22,956 nt of DNA from a virus, in the IMG/VR virus record IMGVR_UViG_3300042924_005166, positions 1-22,956 of that record. One strand, written 5' to 3'. How positions within the stretch are numbered: position 1 is the first letter of the stretch; each line of letters begins with the position of its first letter. Positions 1 to 20,822 of this stretch are shown piece by piece. The notes beneath the pieces are model-generated. The model saw only the letters and a program-made list of their open reading frames with translations, did no database searches and had not been told where the DNA came from. The position numbers and the translations under genes are program-made.

Positions 1-4167
<4,167 letters not shown>

Positions 4168-4168
<1 letters not shown>

Positions 4169-5074: not shown

Positions 5075-5892
<818 letters not shown>

Positions 5893-11474: not shown

Positions 11475-12509
11475 ATGCCATTTTTCAGTATCAGACCTCA
11501 GTCAACGTTTAGTGTTCGCTCTAGACGTATTATTGCGCTGACTTTTTTAACTCGTCAGGTCATCACTACTGGATATGTTGCTGCTGGATACAAAGATGGT
11601 ATTGCGTGGAGAAATGTAAATAAAAACAACCATGCTACAGATGTCTGTACTAACCTAGGAGACCTGCTTCAAGAGGCTGCTAACTATACCTCAGGTGCTC
11701 ATAATAGAGACAATGCCTTTATGTGGGGAACTGCTGGTACAGGATCTGGTGGTGTAGGTGCATTTACATCAACTTCTTGTTGGAATATGCGCAATGACAC
11801 AACTCTTACAAAAACTTCTCAGATGAATACTGCTCAAACAGTAGGAGACTCTGCAACAATTATTAATTATGACGCTAACGGAACTGGTACTTTTTCATAT
11901 CAAACTGGTAATCAAGGTGCTTCTGTTTATCAAAAATTTAACTTAACTACTCAGCAACATCAATCGACTATAGGTACTTCTTTCACTCAGGGTGGCACTG
12001 GTGCGGGTGCTCACTTTAGTGAATTGTTTGGGTATTTTTGGGGAGACACTCCTAGCACTGATAAAAGAAAATTTGTTTTTGCTACAGAGACAGAGAGTAC
12101 TCCTTCACCAAATATTGGCCATCATGGACAACAAAAAGGTCTGATGAGTAAAGTAGGTAAAGGCTATGCTGGAAATGAAGGTTCCTATGGCGAAGGAAAC
12201 AATTTTAGAATTACTGACTATGCTACTGAAACATTAAGTGGAACCTCCGCTAAGCCTCTTGCAAATCATGGAGAAGAAAACTTCCTTTGTGGGCAAGATA
12301 AAGGGTATGCTCTAGGTGTATACGAAAACCCTGGACCAGGCCAAACTAATAACTCATACAAAATTCAATATGCTACTAACGTCGGCACTAATTTAGGCAC
12401 AGCGGGGCAGCCATCAGGAACAGCCTCTGGAACAGGTGCAAGTGGAACTTGCTGCCCATCAGGTCTCATTGGTGGACGTTCTTCAGGGCACGGTTATTGG
12501 AGAGACTAG
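11475..12509 (+). CDS. Virion structural protein, probable tail or fibre component (344 aa)
   Basis: ATG 11475 follows AGGAG with a long A-rich spacer (about 14 bases), so initiation may be weak or use a nearer A-rich site. The N-terminus (FFSIRPQSTFSVRSRR, then IIALTFLTRQVITTGYVAAGYKDG) looks like a connector; the middle is rich in Gly, Ser, Thr, Asn and aromatics with WRNVNKNNHATDVCTNLGDLL and NNFRITDYATETLSGTS; the C-terminus is Gly/Ser-rich with a CC pair (GTCCPSG). Proteins with a WRNVNK...T.LGDLL motif occur among structural proteins of T4-like phages of cyanobacteria and other aquatic bacteria; this match is from memory and unverified. It closes the tail block: after it comes a 73-base gap. 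No transmembrane helix or enzymatic motif seen. Confidence 0.75.
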   Translation: MPFFSIRPQSTFSVRSRRIIALTFLTRQVITTGYVAAGYKDGIAWRNVNKNNHATDVCTNLGDLLQEAANYTSGAHNRDNAFMWGTAGTGSGGVGAFTSTSCWNMRNDTTLTKTSQMNTAQTVGDSATIINYDANGTGTFSYQTGNQGASVYQKFNLTTQQHQSTIGTSFTQGGTGAGAHFSELFGYFWGDTPSTDKRKFVFATETESTPSPNIGHHGQQKGLMSKVGKGYAGNEGSYGEGNNFRITDYATETLSGTSAKPLANHGEENFLCGQDKGYALGVYENPGPGQTNNSYKIQYATNVGTNLGTAGQPSGTASGTGASGTCCPSGLIGGRSSGHGYWRD

Positions 12510-12582: not shown

Positions 12583-13368
12583 ATGACTAATAATGAAATT
12601 ACCCCGCTTCCAATGCCGCTTACTGATGTTTCTAATCTGACAGAAACACAGAGGGACCTTCTTCATCTATCACTACAAACTGACCATGGAACTCCTATGT
12701 TCAAAATCCGTCATTTTGTTGGTGATGCTCAAATCACAAGATATGCAAAATATAAGCAACTACTGCTTGAACTTCGGGCAAGAGAAGAAGTAATTGAACA
12801 AACTCTAGTCCAACTTGAAAAAAACAAAGCCCACGTTGAAGAGGTAAAAGAGCGTTTGCTTACCACCGAAAGTGAAGCAACTAAAAAATCTCTTATGTGG
12901 GATTTAACTAGTCATATCAATGATATTGCTAAAACAGAGAGACGCTTAAAAATGGCTTATACAGAACGAGGCCATTTTCTTACAGCGCTTGAAGAGATGT
13001 ATCACACTGGGGAAGCATATCTAGAGGATGGAACAGACCTAAAACTTTCTTTAAGTGACCCAGAGTTGGCAGAAAGACTAGAAGCAGAGCATTGGGTCTA
13101 TCGACTAGGAAAACAAGCAGCGCTAGATTTAATTGCTTATGGTCATATTGGAACTGGAAATTTAGAAGCAATCACAATGCTTGATGAAGAGGCAGCAGCA
13201 AAGACTTTGGAAATTGCTATGACCTACTCTCATAGTATGAAAAAAGCGCTGGGAACTATGGAGCAAACAATTATTGAAGCAATAGAGTCTGGCAATATTG
13301 GCACTACTTCAATTAAAATTGAAAATCAAAAACTTTCAAAACACTTAGAGATTGAATCAAATGAATGA
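12583..13368 (+). CDS. Coiled-coil protein, unknown function (261 aa)
   Basis: ATG 12583 follows a weak purine-rich stretch. N-terminal 50 residues are mixed (PLPMPLTDVSNLTETQRDLL); residues about 55-150 are long helix with high Glu/Lys/Leu content (LRAREEVIEQTLVQLEKNK ... VKERLL) and probable coiled coil; the C-terminal half is also helical (AAAKTLEIAMTYSHSMKKAL, ETM). No Cys, membrane segment or nucleotide-binding motif seen. It begins a new operon-like run after a 73-base gap and its stop codon overlaps the start of the next gene by 8 bases. Tail assembly chaperone, internal virion protein or regulatory partner are all possible. I do not recognise the family. Confidence 0.7.
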   Translation: MTNNEITPLPMPLTDVSNLTETQRDLLHLSLQTDHGTPMFKIRHFVGDAQITRYAKYKQLLLELRAREEVIEQTLVQLEKNKAHVEEVKERLLTTESEATKKSLMWDLTSHINDIAKTERRLKMAYTERGHFLTALEEMYHTGEAYLEDGTDLKLSLSDPELAERLEAEHWVYRLGKQAALDLIAYGHIGTGNLEAITMLDEEAAAKTLEIAMTYSHSMKKALGTMEQTIIEAIESGNIGTTSIKIENQKLSKHLEIESNE

Positions 13369-14053
13369 GTTTTATAAATACTACATTGCTATTCACTTTG
13401 AAGATAAAAATGCTTTAGGCAATATTCCACCAATAGGTTGGTGGAATACTAATTATTACATTTATGAAGTAGAAGACCATGTAATATCTAGACTTGACTT
13501 ACTAAAAGTAAGAGTAGTAAGTATGTCACAGAAAGTTGCTTATGGTTGGAATTTTTGCACTGCTCAGAGAGACCACATAAAAGTCCGTGAAAGTAATCTG
13601 TTAGTAATAGAACAAATTGGTGGAAAAGAAAAATTAGAGTTATATAAACCTGAATACTATAAATATTATCTAACAGAAGATGACATAGCAAATGGAGTTG
13701 CTTTTGGAAAAATAATGCTAAAAGAGCATTTATATAGAAATTATAAAAATATTTGGTCATATACCAAAGAAAACTACTCGGACATATACTCTGAGTATTT
13801 TACCTATGTGTATGGGACAGATGATAAAGAGTTGATTTCCCAAACGGAAAACAAGTTCCCAAAACAAATTGAAGATTACAAAAAATACTATAAAAATCTA
13901 AGTGTTCTAGTTGAGGATATGGCTATTTTAGAAAACACTATTGATAGCATAGGGTCAATCGAAGATGTTCACAAAGCACTATATGAAATAGCAATTCGTA
14001 TAGACTCCTTTCCACAGACAATTTTGGAGAATAGGGAAATAAAAAATGTTTAG
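13361..14053 (+). CDS. Tyr/Lys/Asn-rich hypothetical protein (230 aa)
   Basis: The start chosen is ATG 13361, which overlaps the upstream stop by 8 bases; a TTG nine bases earlier could extend it by three residues but is less likely. The protein is very rich in Tyr, Asn, Lys and Ile (YKYYIAIHF, EYYKYYLTEDDI) and has an aromatic motif GWWNTNYYIYEVEDH early on. Two long helices are likely at the C-terminal end (LSVLVEDMAILENTIDSIG, EDVHKALYEIA). It overlaps the next gene by 8 bases, so it is translationally coupled on both sides. Base composition is more AT-rich than the tail genes, which may mark a recent acquisition. No recognisable domain; function unknown. Confidence 0.7.
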   Translation: MNEFYKYYIAIHFEDKNALGNIPPIGWWNTNYYIYEVEDHVISRLDLLKVRVVSMSQKVAYGWNFCTAQRDHIKVRESNLLVIEQIGGKEKLELYKPEYYKYYLTEDDIANGVAFGKIMLKEHLYRNYKNIWSYTKENYSDIYSEYFTYVYGTDDKELISQTENKFPKQIEDYKKYYKNLSVLVEDMAILENTIDSIGSIEDVHKALYEIAIRIDSFPQTILENREIKNV

Positions 14054-15683
14054 TGTGCCTCTCAATCCTAAACTAAGCACAGAAGAAAATACAGATTTTT
14101 ATATTTTTTTACAAGAATACAAACCGTACATATATGATTTTTATTTTACTTGTAGGATACCTCCATTTACCCAAGACGCTATGGGAGATGTATTTAGTGG
14201 GGGAACAGATGACCACGACTATCTTATAAATCTTGCTTTACATATACAAAAAGATTTAGGAATTACCGCTTCTGCTGTATTTAATAATACAGAGGTAAGG
14301 CCTTCTCAACAAAATTTAGATTTATTTATTGAGTATTTTAAGCCAGTGTATGAGGCTGGAATTAGATCAGCAACAATACCCCACACCCACTGGGTGGCCA
14401 CTGGACAAATTCAAAAAGCATTTCCAGATTTGTTTATTAAGAATACAATTCTTCGCAACGTGAGTGAGCCTAGAGATATTGAAAAACTTGCTAAAGCAGG
14501 GTTTCACTACATAAATCTAGACCGAGACCTAATGCGTGACCACGAAAAACTTTTGCGTTTTAAGAAGGCTAAAGAGATGTTTGGAGTAAAACTATCGCTT
14601 TTAGCCAATGAAGGATGTCTTGGCGGATGCATAATGATGGATGAGCACTATCAATTTAACAACACCAGAGTTGACGGACCTCAATATTTTGCTGACCCCA
14701 TAAGCAGAGTCTCTTGTATGAAGTGGGACCACGAAGACCAAGCCGTTGCTCTAAAAACAGCAAACTTCCCGCCTTGGCGTGCTGACTGGCAACAGTTTAT
14801 AGATAAACTTGGCATTGATGTCATAAAGATGCACGGAAGAGAGTCAAAAGTAAGGCTTCGTGAAACTATGAGCATAATTAAAAAATATGCTGATGGTGAA
14901 GAGATTCTTTTTGACCATTTTAGTGACTTTATCGAAGAGACAAATCTTGTTGATAGACCCATAAACATATGGAGAAACAAGATTAAAACTTGTAAATTTG
15001 ACTGCTGGGATTGCGGCTATTGCGACAAAATTGTCAAAGCAAAGTATGGAGACAAAACAAATCCTAAAGTAACAATGGTCACTCAAGGGCTTGTTGATGC
15101 TGTCAATGTTGATATTGATATTCCTATAGAAGGGCTCACAAGTAAAAGAGTTCAAGCGCTTCTTAATTATTTAGGTAAAAACTCTAAAACATATTTAGAG
15201 GTTGGAACTTATCAAGGGGCAACAGCAGCAGCAACGCTACTAAACAACTCTCTCAAGGCATACCTTATTGATAACTGGAAAGACAACATTCAGCCAGCAG
15301 AGGCAGACCTAACTCTGCCAGAAAACAATAAAGATGATTTTGAAATGAATATACAGCCATACCTAAAAGGCAACAATGTGGTAGTTATTGATGAAGACTT
15401 GTTTGACGTAGATGTATCAACAATTAAAGATGTTGACCTGTTCTTCTATGACGGACCACACGACCACGTTTCTGTGTCCAAGGCTGTGCAAAAATACGCA
15501 ACTTGCTTTGCGCCAGGTGCAGTGTTAGTATTTGATGATGCTAATTGGAATGATACATACACAGGTGCCGATGAAGGAATTAAAAAAGCAGGGCTACAAG
15601 TGAAATACTCTAAAAAAATAATTAATAAAATTGAGTCAAAACACGACTGGTGGAATGGTCTGTACATAATCGTGCTTAGTTAG
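14046..15683 (+). CDS. U32-like (PrtC/UbiU-type) domain fused to class I methyltransferase
   Basis: 545 residues. Residues about 20-300 resemble the TIM-barrel of the U32 family, with a U32-type signature ANEGCLGGC (187-195, Cys191 and Cys195) and Cys224; a compact Cys cluster follows at 316-326 (C-x3-C-x2-C-x2-C). U32 relatives such as UbiU/UbiV and TrhP/RlhA hold Fe-S clusters or hydroxylate RNA and quinones; proteolysis is doubtful for the family. Residues about 365-545 are a Methyltransf_24-type SAM-binding fold: EVGTYQG (385-391) is motif I, DLFFYDGPHDH (464-474) and VLVFDDANW (493-501) are later motifs. The two halves are continuous with no stop or frameshift. Start is ATG 14046, overlapping the previous gene. 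Substrate unknown; the fusion suggests an Fe-S oxidation or binding step coupled to methyl transfer (inference). Confidence 0.8.
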   Translation: MFSVPLNPKLSTEENTDFYIFLQEYKPYIYDFYFTCRIPPFTQDAMGDVFSGGTDDHDYLINLALHIQKDLGITASAVFNNTEVRPSQQNLDLFIEYFKPVYEAGIRSATIPHTHWVATGQIQKAFPDLFIKNTILRNVSEPRDIEKLAKAGFHYINLDRDLMRDHEKLLRFKKAKEMFGVKLSLLANEGCLGGCIMMDEHYQFNNTRVDGPQYFADPISRVSCMKWDHEDQAVALKTANFPPWRADWQQFIDKLGIDVIKMHGRESKVRLRETMSIIKKYADGEEILFDHFSDFIEETNLVDRPINIWRNKIKTCKFDCWDCGYCDKIVKAKYGDKTNPKVTMVTQGLVDAVNVDIDIPIEGLTSKRVQALLNYLGKNSKTYLEVGTYQGATAAATLLNNSLKAYLIDNWKDNIQPAEADLTLPENNKDDFEMNIQPYLKGNNVVVIDEDLFDVDVSTIKDVDLFFYDGPHDHVSVSKAVQKYATCFAPGAVLVFDDANWNDTYTGADEGIKKAGLQVKYSKKIINKIESKHDWWNGLYIIVLS

Positions 15684-15776: not shown

Positions 15777-16727
15777 ATGGAGTTTACATCTTCATTAATA
15801 ACGAATAACCAGCAGTATTTAGTATTACTGGCAGCAGTTATGGCTTTGTCATTTGCTGCTAAAAAGACTCAAGTGTTTTTGCCTTTCTACTCATGGATTG
15901 CAAGAACTGTTAAGTCAAAAAGAGCAGTAGTTGCTCTTATTTCACTAGCATCTGGTGTATTACCTATCTCAGGTCGTGTAGCGGTCTCAGCGGGTGCGCT
16001 AGACACTATCGCACCAGAGGACACTAAGAAGCGTAAAAACTACGGAATCATCGACTACCTATCTACGCATCACTTTTATTTTTGGTCTCCTTTAGAGGCC
16101 ACAGTCCTTGTTCCTATGGCAGTTCTAGGTCTTAGTTATGGCGAATTTTTAAGTAAAATTTGGCCTCTACTGGCGACTGCAATCGTCATCATTCTTTGGT
16201 ACATTTTTAAGGTGCTTAAAGAAGATGACATTGACATTGTAATCCCAACTAAGCCACTAAAGAAAAAACAAAAAGAGGCTTGGCAGATTGAAGCGGACTC
16301 AAAGCGTGATCGTCGTCAAGTAGTTGATTACTCAAAGACCATTATCTTTACTTTTTTTGTAATCATTCTTGGTAATATTGTTAAGGCTAATTTTGATGCT
16401 ATCGAAGCGTGGGTAAAATCTGCTAACGAAAGCAACCTAATTATTCTTGTTGCTTTTGTAGGGTTCCTAGCCAGTTTTGCCTTAGGAAGCAGCGGTAAGT
16501 TTGCAGGATTTGTAGGACTGTCAACAAGCGTATTTGGGCCAGCAACATTGCCTTTGTTCTTCGCTGTGGATTATGCAGGATATATGCTTTCTCCCACACA
16601 CAAGTGTTTAGTTGTGGGAAAAAGTTATTTTAAGACTCCGCTTAAGGACTACTACAAAGCAATTCTTTCTCTAGTTATTCCTCTTATTTTAGTTGGAATT
16701 ATCCTCTACTACGGTGGAACCCTTTGA
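15777..16727 (+). CDS. Integral membrane transporter-like protein (DUF401-like, tentative)
   Basis: 316 residues, ATG 15777 behind AAAGGAAAC. About eight hydrophobic segments: near residues 12-30, 50-70, 95-118, 125-145, 190-207, 222-240, 245-275 and 295-313, with a charged cytosolic-type loop at about 146-188 (KKKQKEAW, DSKRDRRQ). Motifs GVLPISGRVAVSAG (59-72), HHFYFWSPLEA and SPTHKCLVV are reminiscent of DUF401 and the wider CitMHS/GntP-type transporter group, where a re-entrant loop with a Pro/Gly-rich segment occurs in each half. It is shorter than the usual 400 or so residues, so one or two helices may be lost. Substrate unknown; a carboxylate or anion is a guess from the clan. Membrane transporters are rare in phages, so this is a candidate host-derived auxiliary gene. 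Confidence 0.72.
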   Translation: MEFTSSLITNNQQYLVLLAAVMALSFAAKKTQVFLPFYSWIARTVKSKRAVVALISLASGVLPISGRVAVSAGALDTIAPEDTKKRKNYGIIDYLSTHHFYFWSPLEATVLVPMAVLGLSYGEFLSKIWPLLATAIVIILWYIFKVLKEDDIDIVIPTKPLKKKQKEAWQIEADSKRDRRQVVDYSKTIIFTFFVIILGNIVKANFDAIEAWVKSANESNLIILVAFVGFLASFALGSSGKFAGFVGLSTSVFGPATLPLFFAVDYAGYMLSPTHKCLVVGKSYFKTPLKDYYKAILSLVIPLILVGIILYYGGTL

Positions 16728-17664: not shown

Positions 17665-18735
17665 ATGAAAGTGGCAGTGTATACAATCGCTCTTAACGAA
17701 GAGCAGTTTGTCGAGAGATGGTATAACTCGGTAAAAGACGAAGCAGACTATTTGCTTATCGCTGATACAGGCTCAACGGATGGCACAGTGGAGAAAGCCA
17801 GAGCGTTAGGTATCAATGTTGTTTCTATTTGGGTAAAGCCTTGGCGCTTTGATCAAGGCAGAAACGCATCTTTGGCTTTAGTTCCACCAGATATGGATTA
17901 CTGCGTCCCGCTAGATATGGATGAGATTATGCTTCCAGGTTGGCGTGCTGAACTTGAAAAAGCATTTGAAGCAGGGGCAACTCGTCCACGTTACAACTAC
18001 ATCTGGAATTGGAATGATGATGGAACTCCAGGTCTCACCTTTGGTGGAGACAAGATTCACGCACGTCAAGGATATTTTTGGAAGCATCCTGTACATGAAA
18101 TTTTAACTACAGATAGATTAAAAGAGGTTCAACATTGGACTGGTGCAACTATGGAGCATCACGCAGATAATACTAAATCTCGTGGACAGTATTTAGGGTT
18201 GCTCAAAGCATCGGTAGATGAAGGTCCTACAGATGATAGGAATGCTTTTTATTACGCTAGAGAATTATTTTTCTACAACAAATATGTAGAAGCAACAGCA
18301 GAGTTCAAACGTCATCTATCTTTACCTAATGCCAGATGGGCACCAGAGCGTGCTGCATCTATGCGCTACTTAGGCAAGATAAATAAAGAAGAGGCGGAGT
18401 TGTGGTTTACCTTAGCGGTAAGAGAAGCACCAGGCAGACGTGAGCCGCATATTGATTTGGCTAAACACTACTACGGCACTAGTGACTGGAAACTTTGCTA
18501 TGAGCACGCAAATATTGCTTTAGCAATAAAAGAAAAACCTTTAGAGTATCTCTGCGAGGCCGAAGCGTGGGGATTTACTCCGTATGATTTAGCATCGATA
18601 TCTGCTTACAATTTGGGAATGTACAAAGAGGCGTATGAAAACGCTGTAAAGGCCCTTGAACTAGGGCCTGAAAAAGATAAAGAAAGACTAAAAGCAAACC
18701 TATCCTTCTGTGAGGCAAAACTAAATGACAACTAA
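17665..18735 (+). CDS. GT2 glycosyltransferase with C-terminal helical-repeat domain
   Basis: 356 residues. Residues 1-180 form a GT-A fold of family 2: an N-terminal VAVYTIALNEE, the nucleotide-binding IADTGSTDGT (32-41), and a metal-binding LDMDE (83-87, Asp84 and Asp86 as the DxD-type pair). HPVHEIL (141-147) is a typical later motif. Residues about 190-350 are tetratricopeptide-like helices (FYYARELFFYNKYVEAT; YNLGMYKEAYENAVKALELGP). GT2 proteins of this GT-A plus TPR layout occur in phages and bacteria and add a sugar to a glycan, nucleic acid or protein. The start directly abuts the upstream stop and its end overlaps the next methyltransferase by 11 bases, so the pair is probably made together. 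Target unknown; fibres, host glycan or DNA are all possible. Confidence 0.92.
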   Translation: MKVAVYTIALNEEQFVERWYNSVKDEADYLLIADTGSTDGTVEKARALGINVVSIWVKPWRFDQGRNASLALVPPDMDYCVPLDMDEIMLPGWRAELEKAFEAGATRPRYNYIWNWNDDGTPGLTFGGDKIHARQGYFWKHPVHEILTTDRLKEVQHWTGATMEHHADNTKSRGQYLGLLKASVDEGPTDDRNAFYYARELFFYNKYVEATAEFKRHLSLPNARWAPERAASMRYLGKINKEEAELWFTLAVREAPGRREPHIDLAKHYYGTSDWKLCYEHANIALAIKEKPLEYLCEAEAWGFTPYDLASISAYNLGMYKEAYENAVKALELGPEKDKERLKANLSFCEAKLNDN

Positions 18736-19309
18736 TGACTATCCAAACTGGTTTACTACTAATGGTGCTTCTCAAAACTTTGCATCTCAACTGTATAAGT
18801 TCAAAGATGTGAAAGTAGATTTTCTTCAACTAGGAGCCTACACAGGGGATGCCACCAAGTGGCTCTTTGAGAATGTTCTTACCCACCCAGAATCAACTTT
18901 GACAGATGTTGATACTTGGGAAGGCTCTAACGAAGAAGAGCATAAGGAGATGAACTGGCAAAGCGTCGAGTCTATCTATGACGAGAAGAATTCTCAGTGG
19001 CTATCTGAGTCAAGATTATTTAAGAAGAAAATGACTACAGATGAGTTTTTTGCATCCAACAACAAACAATTTGACTTTGTTTATGTAGATGCTGACCATA
19101 CCGCAATGGCTGTTCTGAAAGATGGAATTCATGGGTATGACTGTCTAAAAGTAAATGGAATTCTTGCTTTTGATGATTACAGATGGGGCGCTCATCTACC
19201 AGTAAAAGATAGACCTCAGGCTGGTGTAGATGCTTTTAGAGTCGCTCATTGGAACAAGACATCGCTCCTTGAGGCTAATCAACAGGTTTGGTTGAAGAAG
19301 ATTTCTTAG
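18725..19309 (+). CDS. SAM-dependent methyltransferase, Methyltransf_24 type (194 aa)
   Basis: Starts at an ATG inside the end of the glycosyltransferase gene (11-base overlap). Compact class I fold: motif I LQLGAYTG (35-41), acidic loop DVDTW (61-65), core YVDADH (120-125) and FDDYRWG (149-155), in the order of the methyltransferase domain at the C-terminus of the 14046 gene. It is the family usually found with glycan-modifying enzymes, and it sits directly after a GT2 gene, so O-methylation of the sugar added by that enzyme is a plausible role (inference). Complete at both ends for this family. Its 3' end overlaps the converging WhiB gene by 35 bases. Confidence 0.88.
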   Translation: MTTNDYPNWFTTNGASQNFASQLYKFKDVKVDFLQLGAYTGDATKWLFENVLTHPESTLTDVDTWEGSNEEEHKEMNWQSVESIYDEKNSQWLSESRLFKKKMTTDEFFASNNKQFDFVYVDADHTAMAVLKDGIHGYDCLKVNGILAFDDYRWGAHLPVKDRPQAGVDAFRVAHWNKTSLLEANQQVWLKKIS

Positions 19310-19808
19310 CCTTACGATTTTTCTTTAGTTTTTCCTTTTGTTGTTTGGCGAGTTTTTCTGCTCGCTCAGTCTTATATGCTTCAACAGCATTGGCACTAGT
19401 ACGACTGCGCCAAGCAAATCCACACTCAGTGCAGGTAACAATCTTTGCTGTAGTCCAACGACCAGTTGTATCAAGTTGAGCAATAGAAGTTTCTAGTTTG
19501 TTTGGTCGCGCTGTGCAGTACGGACAATTTGGGAACCTGCGTCGTCTAGTTTCTTCTCCAAGATATGAGACAGAAAGAGTTCTACGAATTTCAACTTCAT
19601 CTTTTCCTCCCCAGATTCCCCAGATTTGACGATGCTCAAGAGCCCACTGAAGGCACTGTGATCTCACAGGGCAGGAGAAGCAGAGGTTCTTAGCCGTATA
19701 TTTTTGGGAGAAATCTTGGGAGAAAAAGTGGTCTATGTATGTTCTATTTTCTGGGAGAGCGCATAAGGCGTTACGTTGCCACTCTAAGTTGTTTACAGGT
19801 TTCCACAC
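19275..19808 (-). CDS. WhiB-family protein with extra C-terminal zinc ribbon
   Basis: 177 residues. Residues 1-80 are a WhiB domain: Cys16, Cys43, Cys46 and Cys52 (C-x26-C-x2-C-x5-C) as Fe-S ligands and the GIWGG turn at 64-68. WhiB proteins bind the sigma-A subunit of RNA polymerase and adjust promoter choice. Residues about 90-140 add a C-x2-C ... C-x2-C ribbon (Cys95, 98, 126, 129) followed by a Lys-rich tail (147-170), which most WhiB proteins lack. Start is GTG 19808, the only plausible one since an in-frame stop lies 15 bases upstream; an overlapping ATG is in another frame. Probable phage-encoded regulator of host or phage transcription. The extra ribbon and basic tail would suit DNA or RNA contact (inference). 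Confidence 0.93.
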   Translation of the reverse strand: MWKPVNNLEWQRNALCALPENRTYIDHFFSQDFSQKYTAKNLCFSCPVRSQCLQWALEHRQIWGIWGGKDEVEIRRTLSVSYLGEETRRRRFPNCPYCTARPNKLETSIAQLDTTGRWTTAKIVTCTECGFAWRSRTSANAVEAYKTERAEKLAKQQKEKLKKNRKAKKSSSTKPVD

Positions 19809-20534: not shown

Positions 20535-20822
20535 TTAGTATCCTAGATTTGCTGCCACGCCATCAACATTTATACCTTTACGCCTTCTAATGACATTTCT
20601 TTCCTGAGGCGTAAGACCACCCCAAAAGCCAAAAGATTCGTGCTTTATGGCCCAATCAGCGCATTCGGTTGAGTGAATACACGACTTACATATTTGCTTC
20701 GCTACAGTGTAGTCTCCAACAGAGACAACAACAGACCTGTCATCTTTGTCTTCTAAGTAGAAGAACTCGACTCCAACTTCAGCGCACAACGGTTGATTAA
20801 AAGTCCAAGGCTCTTTAGCCAC
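20535..20822 (-). CDS. WhiB-family transcriptional regulator, minimal form (95 aa)
   Basis: All hallmark residues are present: Cys13, Cys45, Cys48 and Cys54 (C-x31-C-x2-C-x5-C) for a [4Fe-4S] cluster, and the GFWGG turn at 65-69, followed by a basic patch (ERNVIRRRKG) that contacts DNA in known WhiB proteins. Length is normal for the family (about 80-120). Start is GTG 20822. Phage WhiB proteins such as WhiBTM4 can inhibit the host WhiB2 and block septation, and others redirect sigma-A; either is possible here. Having two WhiB genes 730 bases apart is notable. Together they form the main evidence that the host is an actinobacterium. Confidence 0.94.
   Translation of the reverse strand: MAKEPWTFNQPLCAEVGVEFFYLEDKDDRSVVVSVGDYTVAKQICKSCIHSTECADWAIKHESFGFWGGLTPQERNVIRRRKGINVDGVAANLGY

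Follow-up and report, generated by a model that had tools for sequence, protein, structure and literature searches.

U32 hydroxylases act without O2. In Bacillus subtilis and other Gram-positive bacteria, the U32-type barrel protein TrhP forms ho5U34 in tRNA via prephenate, and the SAM- and metal-dependent enzyme TrmR then O-methylates ho5U34 to mo5U34 (PMC6599085). Prephenate, a possible oxygen donor, is required by both TrhP and RlhA (PMC6599085; PMC11574389), and Glu162 (TrhP numbering) is essential in both (PMC6599085). In anaerobic ubiquinone synthesis, UbiU and UbiV, with one [4Fe-4S] cluster each and the canonical U32 motif CX6CX15CX3/4C, hydroxylate an aromatic ring that is subsequently O-methylated (PMC6747719). 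A hydroxylase and an O-methyltransferase also occur on one polypeptide in Phytophthora species and the diatom Phaeodactylum, in which trmR is joined to another hydroxylase gene, yceA/TrhO (PMC6599085). The phage protein described here resembles all three systems, and its two halves appear to be distant homologues of TrhP and TrmR. By comparison, TrhP and TrmR are two proteins with a canonical U32 Cys motif, a tRNA substrate and no linkage to phage fibres, and TrhP has an extra C-terminal region. UbiU-UbiV is a heterodimer with four-Cys clusters of other spacing, a small-molecule substrate and a separate methyltransferase, whereas the TrhO half of the eukaryotic fusion is an O2-dependent rhodanese-family hydroxylase unrelated to U32.

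The window, that is, the whole 22,956-base virus contig analysed here, carries collagen-like and other fibre genes upstream of the gene for this fusion protein. The reading frame starts with ATG at 14046 and runs through 545 codons to a stop without interruption. ANEGCLGGC occupies residues 187–195, Cys224 lies within SRVSC, CKFDCWDCGYC spans residues 316–326, and EVGTYQG, YDGPHDH and FDDANW are all found in the protein. The first-pass annotation had described one uninterrupted frame containing these motifs, and each of them was confirmed at the residue number given there. The features of the gene and its upstream neighbours are as follows.

11475–12509, plus strand: GC351-like ('sericin 1 precursor-like') glycine-rich protein, probable fibre component (phrog_1417; GC351 HMM E 1e-120)
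12583–13368, plus strand: GC353-like protein, strictly co-occurring partner (phrog_1409; HMM E 4e-107)
13352–14053, plus strand: GC352-like protein, strictly co-occurring partner (HMM E 3e-65)
14046–15683, plus strand: fusion protein gene of the T4-GC 354 / phrog_1458 family, 545 aa, single open frame
14046–15065, plus strand: predicted U32-like TIM-barrel domain with C-terminal Cys segment, residues 1–340 (from the model and the profile chain)
14616–14717, plus strand: C191-x3-C195-x5-H201 ... C224, proposed cluster ligands in the loop after strand beta7
14826–14843, plus strand: KMHGRE (residues 261–266), equivalent of U32 K-I-E-G-R, at the end of strand beta8
14991–15023, plus strand: C316-x3-C320-x2-C323-x2-C326, second proposed cluster
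15078–15680, plus strand: O-methyltransferase domain, residues 345–545, with SAM motif E385-x-G387-x3-G391 and probable metal ligands D469, D497 and D498

The fusion protein matches the full-length profile of phrog_1458, to which no function is assigned, over residues 46–544 (E 2e-166). This profile match and the cassette position place it in the orthologous T4-GC 354 family of cyanomyoviruses, which has the identical layout and cassette, is annotated 'T4-LIKE GC: 354' in Syn19, P-HM2 and P-SSM4 and has been catalogued without a function. The fusion protein was recovered by tblastn in 123 phage records, with coverage of 80% of its length or more in 121; all belong to Synechococcus or Prochlorococcus phages. 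IMG/VR scans with three different queries gave 464, 472 and 141 confirmed encoding stretches. Both domains occur in every full-length locus, and the short cases are run-offs at contig ends, except for L119, in which the frame breaks. Because the whole layout is kept at ~45% identity in these 123 cyanophage records as well as in over 460 stretches of IMG/VR, it is, as judged from sequence conservation, more than chance. The first-pass annotation knew of no described phage enzyme with this layout. No functional hypothesis for the GC354 family was found. The family is nevertheless common and no peculiarity of this phage: well over 100 marine cyanophages with sequenced genomes carry it, as do hundreds of phages from environmental data, under no annotation other than 'hypothetical'. 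Our literature search found no paper linking cyanophages with peptidase U32, and a PADLOC scan of the fusion protein for a defence function gave no match.

Outside viral records, the plasmids searched contained no relatives of the fusion protein, and a short-pattern genome scan returned only two phage-like contigs, both within metagenome-assembled genomes. Among 293 genomes from the phylum of L084, a Euryarchaeota metagenome-assembled genome, only the phage-like contig itself was found. The cellular relatives discussed below came from profile searches of Chloroflexota genomes. With regard to the host, the window encodes two WhiB-family proteins (PF02467) on the minus strand (19275–19808, E 6e-17; 20535–20822, E 2e-11), and elsewhere WhiB-like ORFs occur only in the nearest relatives L001–L003 and L040. 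The WhiB genes suggest that this branch has an actinobacterial host, whereas the rest of the family is known from cyanophages.

A profile search against PF01136, proposed in the first-pass annotation as a check of its U32 assignment, gave no direct match at E up to 10 in any of 20 family members, and direct Pfam and NCBIfam scans of the fusion protein likewise gave no U32 match. Since a missing profile match had been named there among the grounds for abandoning the assignment, homology was tested by other routes. As the Cys loops were of low confidence in a model of the full-length protein, the N-domain was folded alone with a deeper alignment (pLDDT 87.9, pTM 0.88). This model shows the (beta-alpha)8 barrel of U32 proteins, and its best match among solved structures is the U32 protein Mk0906 (5D88; Z 16.1, rmsd 3.0, 215 aligned), whereas non-U32 barrels reach Z of at most 13.1, three Z units lower. 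In profile–profile comparison, the phage domain aligns in register with TrhP-type U32 proteins, with E 5e-4 to 1e-3 at low probability. Furthermore, the phage N-domain profile finds Chloroflexota proteins (E 1e-6 to 5e-30), among which the bridging proteins L289 and L290 match PF01136 above the cut-off (E 1.4e-15 and 1.9e-7, respectively). The resulting hhalign chain runs from phage to Chloroflexota (E 4e-27), from Chloroflexota to the bridging proteins (1e-13) and from these to U32 (9e-15), with a shortcut from phage to bridging proteins at E 6e-18; by comparison, four unrelated TIM barrels used as controls gave E 0.2–0.5. PDB sequence searches with the N-domain returned nothing useful, and one with TrhP returned no solved relative. 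An AP-endonuclease-type barrel was also considered and rejected, with weak PF01261 matches only (best E 0.022, 7 of 20 members); the control comparison came out negative.

The structure match, the in-register profile alignment, the chain of intermediates and the columns invariant from phage to cell together argue that the N-terminal half is, by profile and model comparison, a distant and divergent U32 homologue. The U32-like barrel of the initial description is thus borne out by the 5D88 fold match and the profile chain through Chloroflexota, and not by the direct Pfam test. The Cys residues that it had singled out (C191, C195 and C224; C316–C326) also prove to be conserved. All 216 aligned phage sequences retain C191, C195, C224, C316, C320, C323 and C326, together with H113, E189, H201, K261, G264 and R265. 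Sequences had been chosen for this alignment by the presence of DAMGD and of the start of the C-terminal Cys motif, so that the conservation of the Cys residues in that motif is partly built in; the independent evidence is strongest for C191, C195 and C224. Across phage, Chloroflexota and bridging proteins, the invariant columns are mainly the seven Cys residues, H201 and K-x2-G-R, and KMHGRE aligns in register with KIEGR of TrhP.

The Cys arrangement nevertheless departs from the canonical four-Cys motif: the phage protein has C-x3-C-x28-C and a separate C-x3-C-x2-C-x2-C, a layout common to the phage and the cellular bridging proteins. At the position aligned with Glu162 of TrhP it has the invariant Ser184, subject to a possible small alignment shift. 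Because the Cys spacing is unlike the canonical motif and the Glu of TrhP and RlhA is absent, we refer to the N-domain, on sequence grounds, as a divergent U32-like subfamily and do not file it as a U32 member. The bridging proteins, which combine the phage Cys layout with a PF01136 match, make it look like a separate subfamily of the same superfamily. If so, U32 hydroxylases would gain a divergent subfamily with the signature C-x3-C-x5-H ... C ... K-x2-G-R ... C-x3-C-x2-C-x2-C.

The C-terminal half carries the Methyltransf_24 domain that had been noticed from the sequence, as PF13578 scores above its cut-off (E 5.9e-9; 37.2 versus 26.3 bits). Among PDB sequences, the first match to the methyltransferase-half profile is YrrM of B. 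subtilis, that is, TrmR (5zw3/5zw4; E 1.9e-4), and the next lies at 0.034. Structural comparison gives COMT-type O-methyltransferases at Z 15–17, including TrmR at Z 16.1, and the domain shows the COMT-like SAM-binding fold and motif of class I O-methyltransferases. The SAM motif E385-x-G387-x3-G391 and residues D469, D497 and D498 are invariant in 68 of 68 members; in our reading of the alignment, these three residues correspond to an Asp, Asp, Asn metal-ligand set with Asp in place of Asn. On profile and modelled structure, the C-terminal half is a predicted SAM-dependent methyltransferase of class I O-methyltransferase fold close to TrmR.

The presence of U32-like and TrmR-like domains in one phage protein suggests hydroxylation followed by O-methylation, and we consider it probable that a single substrate is hydroxylated by the U32-like domain and then O-methylated, the protein being a bifunctional modification enzyme. 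The Cys residues would hold one or two Fe-S clusters, with the three beta7-loop ligands leaving an open iron site and the four-Cys cluster serving as an auxiliary one. The barrel would then add a hydroxyl to an aromatic or heteroaromatic C–H without O2, as do UbiU-UbiV, RlhA and TrhP, with the oxygen probably coming from host-supplied prephenate, and the tethered O-methyltransferase would cap this hydroxyl as a methoxy group. If true, this would allow the pairing of hydroxylation with O-methylation in a single polypeptide to be put to the test, and it would point to an unrecognised modification tied to tail fibres or nucleobases.

By analogy, the idea of hydroxylation and subsequent O-methylation gains support from the TrhP-then-TrmR pathway and from O-methyltransferase genes beside the cellular relatives. 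The Chloroflexota relatives L295, L299 and L301 each adjoin an O-methyltransferase gene; the neighbours in L295 and L299 score as PF00891, and that in L301 is 62% identical to the O-methyltransferase of L299. DAHP synthase is the entry to the shikimate/prephenate pathway, and its genes (PF00793) lie beside U32-like genes in two different genomes (L293, 4237–5052, minus strand; L297, 2098–3144, plus strand), in keeping with a link to prephenate. Only a few Chloroflexota loci are available, some of them from a single clade, so their neighbours count as weak evidence. The L295, L299 and L301 loci also lie near reductive-dehalogenase-like and B12 radical SAM genes, and we know of no description of a neighbourhood in which a U32-like gene and a PF00891-type O-methyltransferase gene accompany genes of these kinds.

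With regard to the substrate, the fusion gene forms the end of the cassette GC351-GC352-GC353-GC354, in which the order of GC353 and GC352 is swapped in the window. The upstream partner GC351 is found in the same order in Syn19, P-SSM4, P-HM2 and S-CAM4, and among the 161 IMG/VR loci whose upstream sequence reaches 3.2 kb or more, GC351 and GC353 are present in 159. The record count is 123 for each of GC352, GC353 and GC354, with identical organism tallies (77/38/8) and the same leading host tallies, a comparison made by tallies and not record by record. The GC352-like gene overlaps its neighbours by 17 and 8 nt and is probably translationally coupled with them. Further upstream, 3–4168 and 5233–5892 (plus strand) encode long collagen-like G-X-T repeat fibre proteins.

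The cassette position shows co-transmission, not substrate identity, but the strict linkage to the fibre-cassette genes weakly favours a fibre-linked target. The target may be a virion component, most likely a GC351–GC353 cassette protein and perhaps an aromatic side chain in it. To our knowledge, the experimentally studied U32 hydroxylases act on RNA or quinone substrates only and none on proteins, which counts against a protein target. Given a two-step enzyme, a tail-fibre protein may well be the substrate, at a likelihood we place a little short of even; an RNA or DNA nucleobase is rather unlikely, and a small molecule or envelope component slightly more so. The full proposal, in which host prephenate and two Fe-S clusters would serve to hydroxylate and then O-methylate an aromatic residue in the phage's own tail-fibre protein, is tentative and unlikely to hold in all its parts. 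If true, it would be without precedent in two ways, as a U32-type enzyme with a protein substrate and as a single polypeptide that combines an O2-independent hydroxylase with a methyltransferase.

The same two-step chemistry may instead act on a nucleobase, so that a 5-methoxy or similar pyrimidine would arise in a nucleotide precursor, in phage DNA or in tRNA or rRNA. This is the main rival, because RB69-like phages have a relative in a DNA-modification cluster. A query with L290 also finds ~200 records of other phages, mostly enterobacterial, and in the one examined, Shigella phage Shf125875, the RB69ORF050c-type 'peptidase' (L303, 5983–7152) matches PF01136 (E 7e-11) and the A4 profile (E 3e-5). 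RB69ORF050c of Mosigvirus resembles the phage barrel as a phage-encoded member of the extended family and lies inside the gene cluster for arabinosylated 5-hydroxycytosine DNA (chemistry: PMC13390438), but it differs in having no methyltransferase fusion, a DNA-modification gene neighbourhood and another Cys spacing. The literature credits a thymidylate-synthase homologue with 5-hodCMP synthesis in Mosigvirus (PMC13390438), so any part that the U32 protein may have in it is conjectural; the present family bears on that part as well. The RNA-acting U32 hydroxylases all place the hydroxyl on pyrimidine C5, the solved methyltransferase closest to the phage domain, TrmR, acts on ho5U34 of tRNA (PMC6599085), and RNA would be shared by cyanobacterial and actinobacterial hosts. 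Set against these points, the fusion gene lies in a late tail-fibre cassette and not among nucleotide-metabolism genes, and its protein has no recognisable RNA-binding extensions; a nucleobase-modifying fusion protein is, overall, distinctly unlikely.

Slightly less plausible still is that the two domains have different substrates, or that the barrel serves in Fe-S electron transfer, in binding or as a structural module, the two being fused only for co-delivery to the assembling tail; we regard this as improbable. The methyltransferase half evolves faster (25–59% identity to the window, compared with 54–81% for the N-domain) and has been exchanged separately by recombination. Between the window and L002, nucleotide identity drops from ~95% to ~70% at codons 326–350, that is, at the domain boundary (window 15020–15100), which indicates that recombination exchanged the methyltransferase half and the downstream DNA and that the barrel stayed with the fibre cassette. 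As the halves have been separated in this one close pair, they need not strictly share a substrate; yet essentially all full-length homologues retain the fusion, and both predicted active sites are fully conserved. Finally, the Cys residues of CKFDCWDC are spaced as in radical SAM enzymes (CX3CX2C), and Zn could be bound by four Cys residues lying so close together, so that the Cys-rich barrel might be a module of radical-SAM or zinc-binding type instead of a U32-type Fe-S hydroxylase. However, the motif (residues 316–323) lies after the barrel, at its C-terminal end, and not after strand beta1, no radical SAM profile (PF04055) matches, and the homology chain ends in U32, whose proteins do not have the radical SAM motif (PMC11574389); such a module is therefore very improbable. 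The reading that we prefer remains a U32-like hydroxylase domain acting ahead of the O-methyltransferase on one substrate.

Downstream of the fusion gene, the window encodes a predicted membrane protein related to DUF401/TIGR00529 transporters (15777–16727, plus strand; E 6e-13). A second Methyltransf_24 gene is located at 18725–19309 (plus strand; E 9e-12), its product being 25% identical to the fused methyltransferase domain, and it adjoins a family 2 glycosyltransferase gene at 17665–18735.
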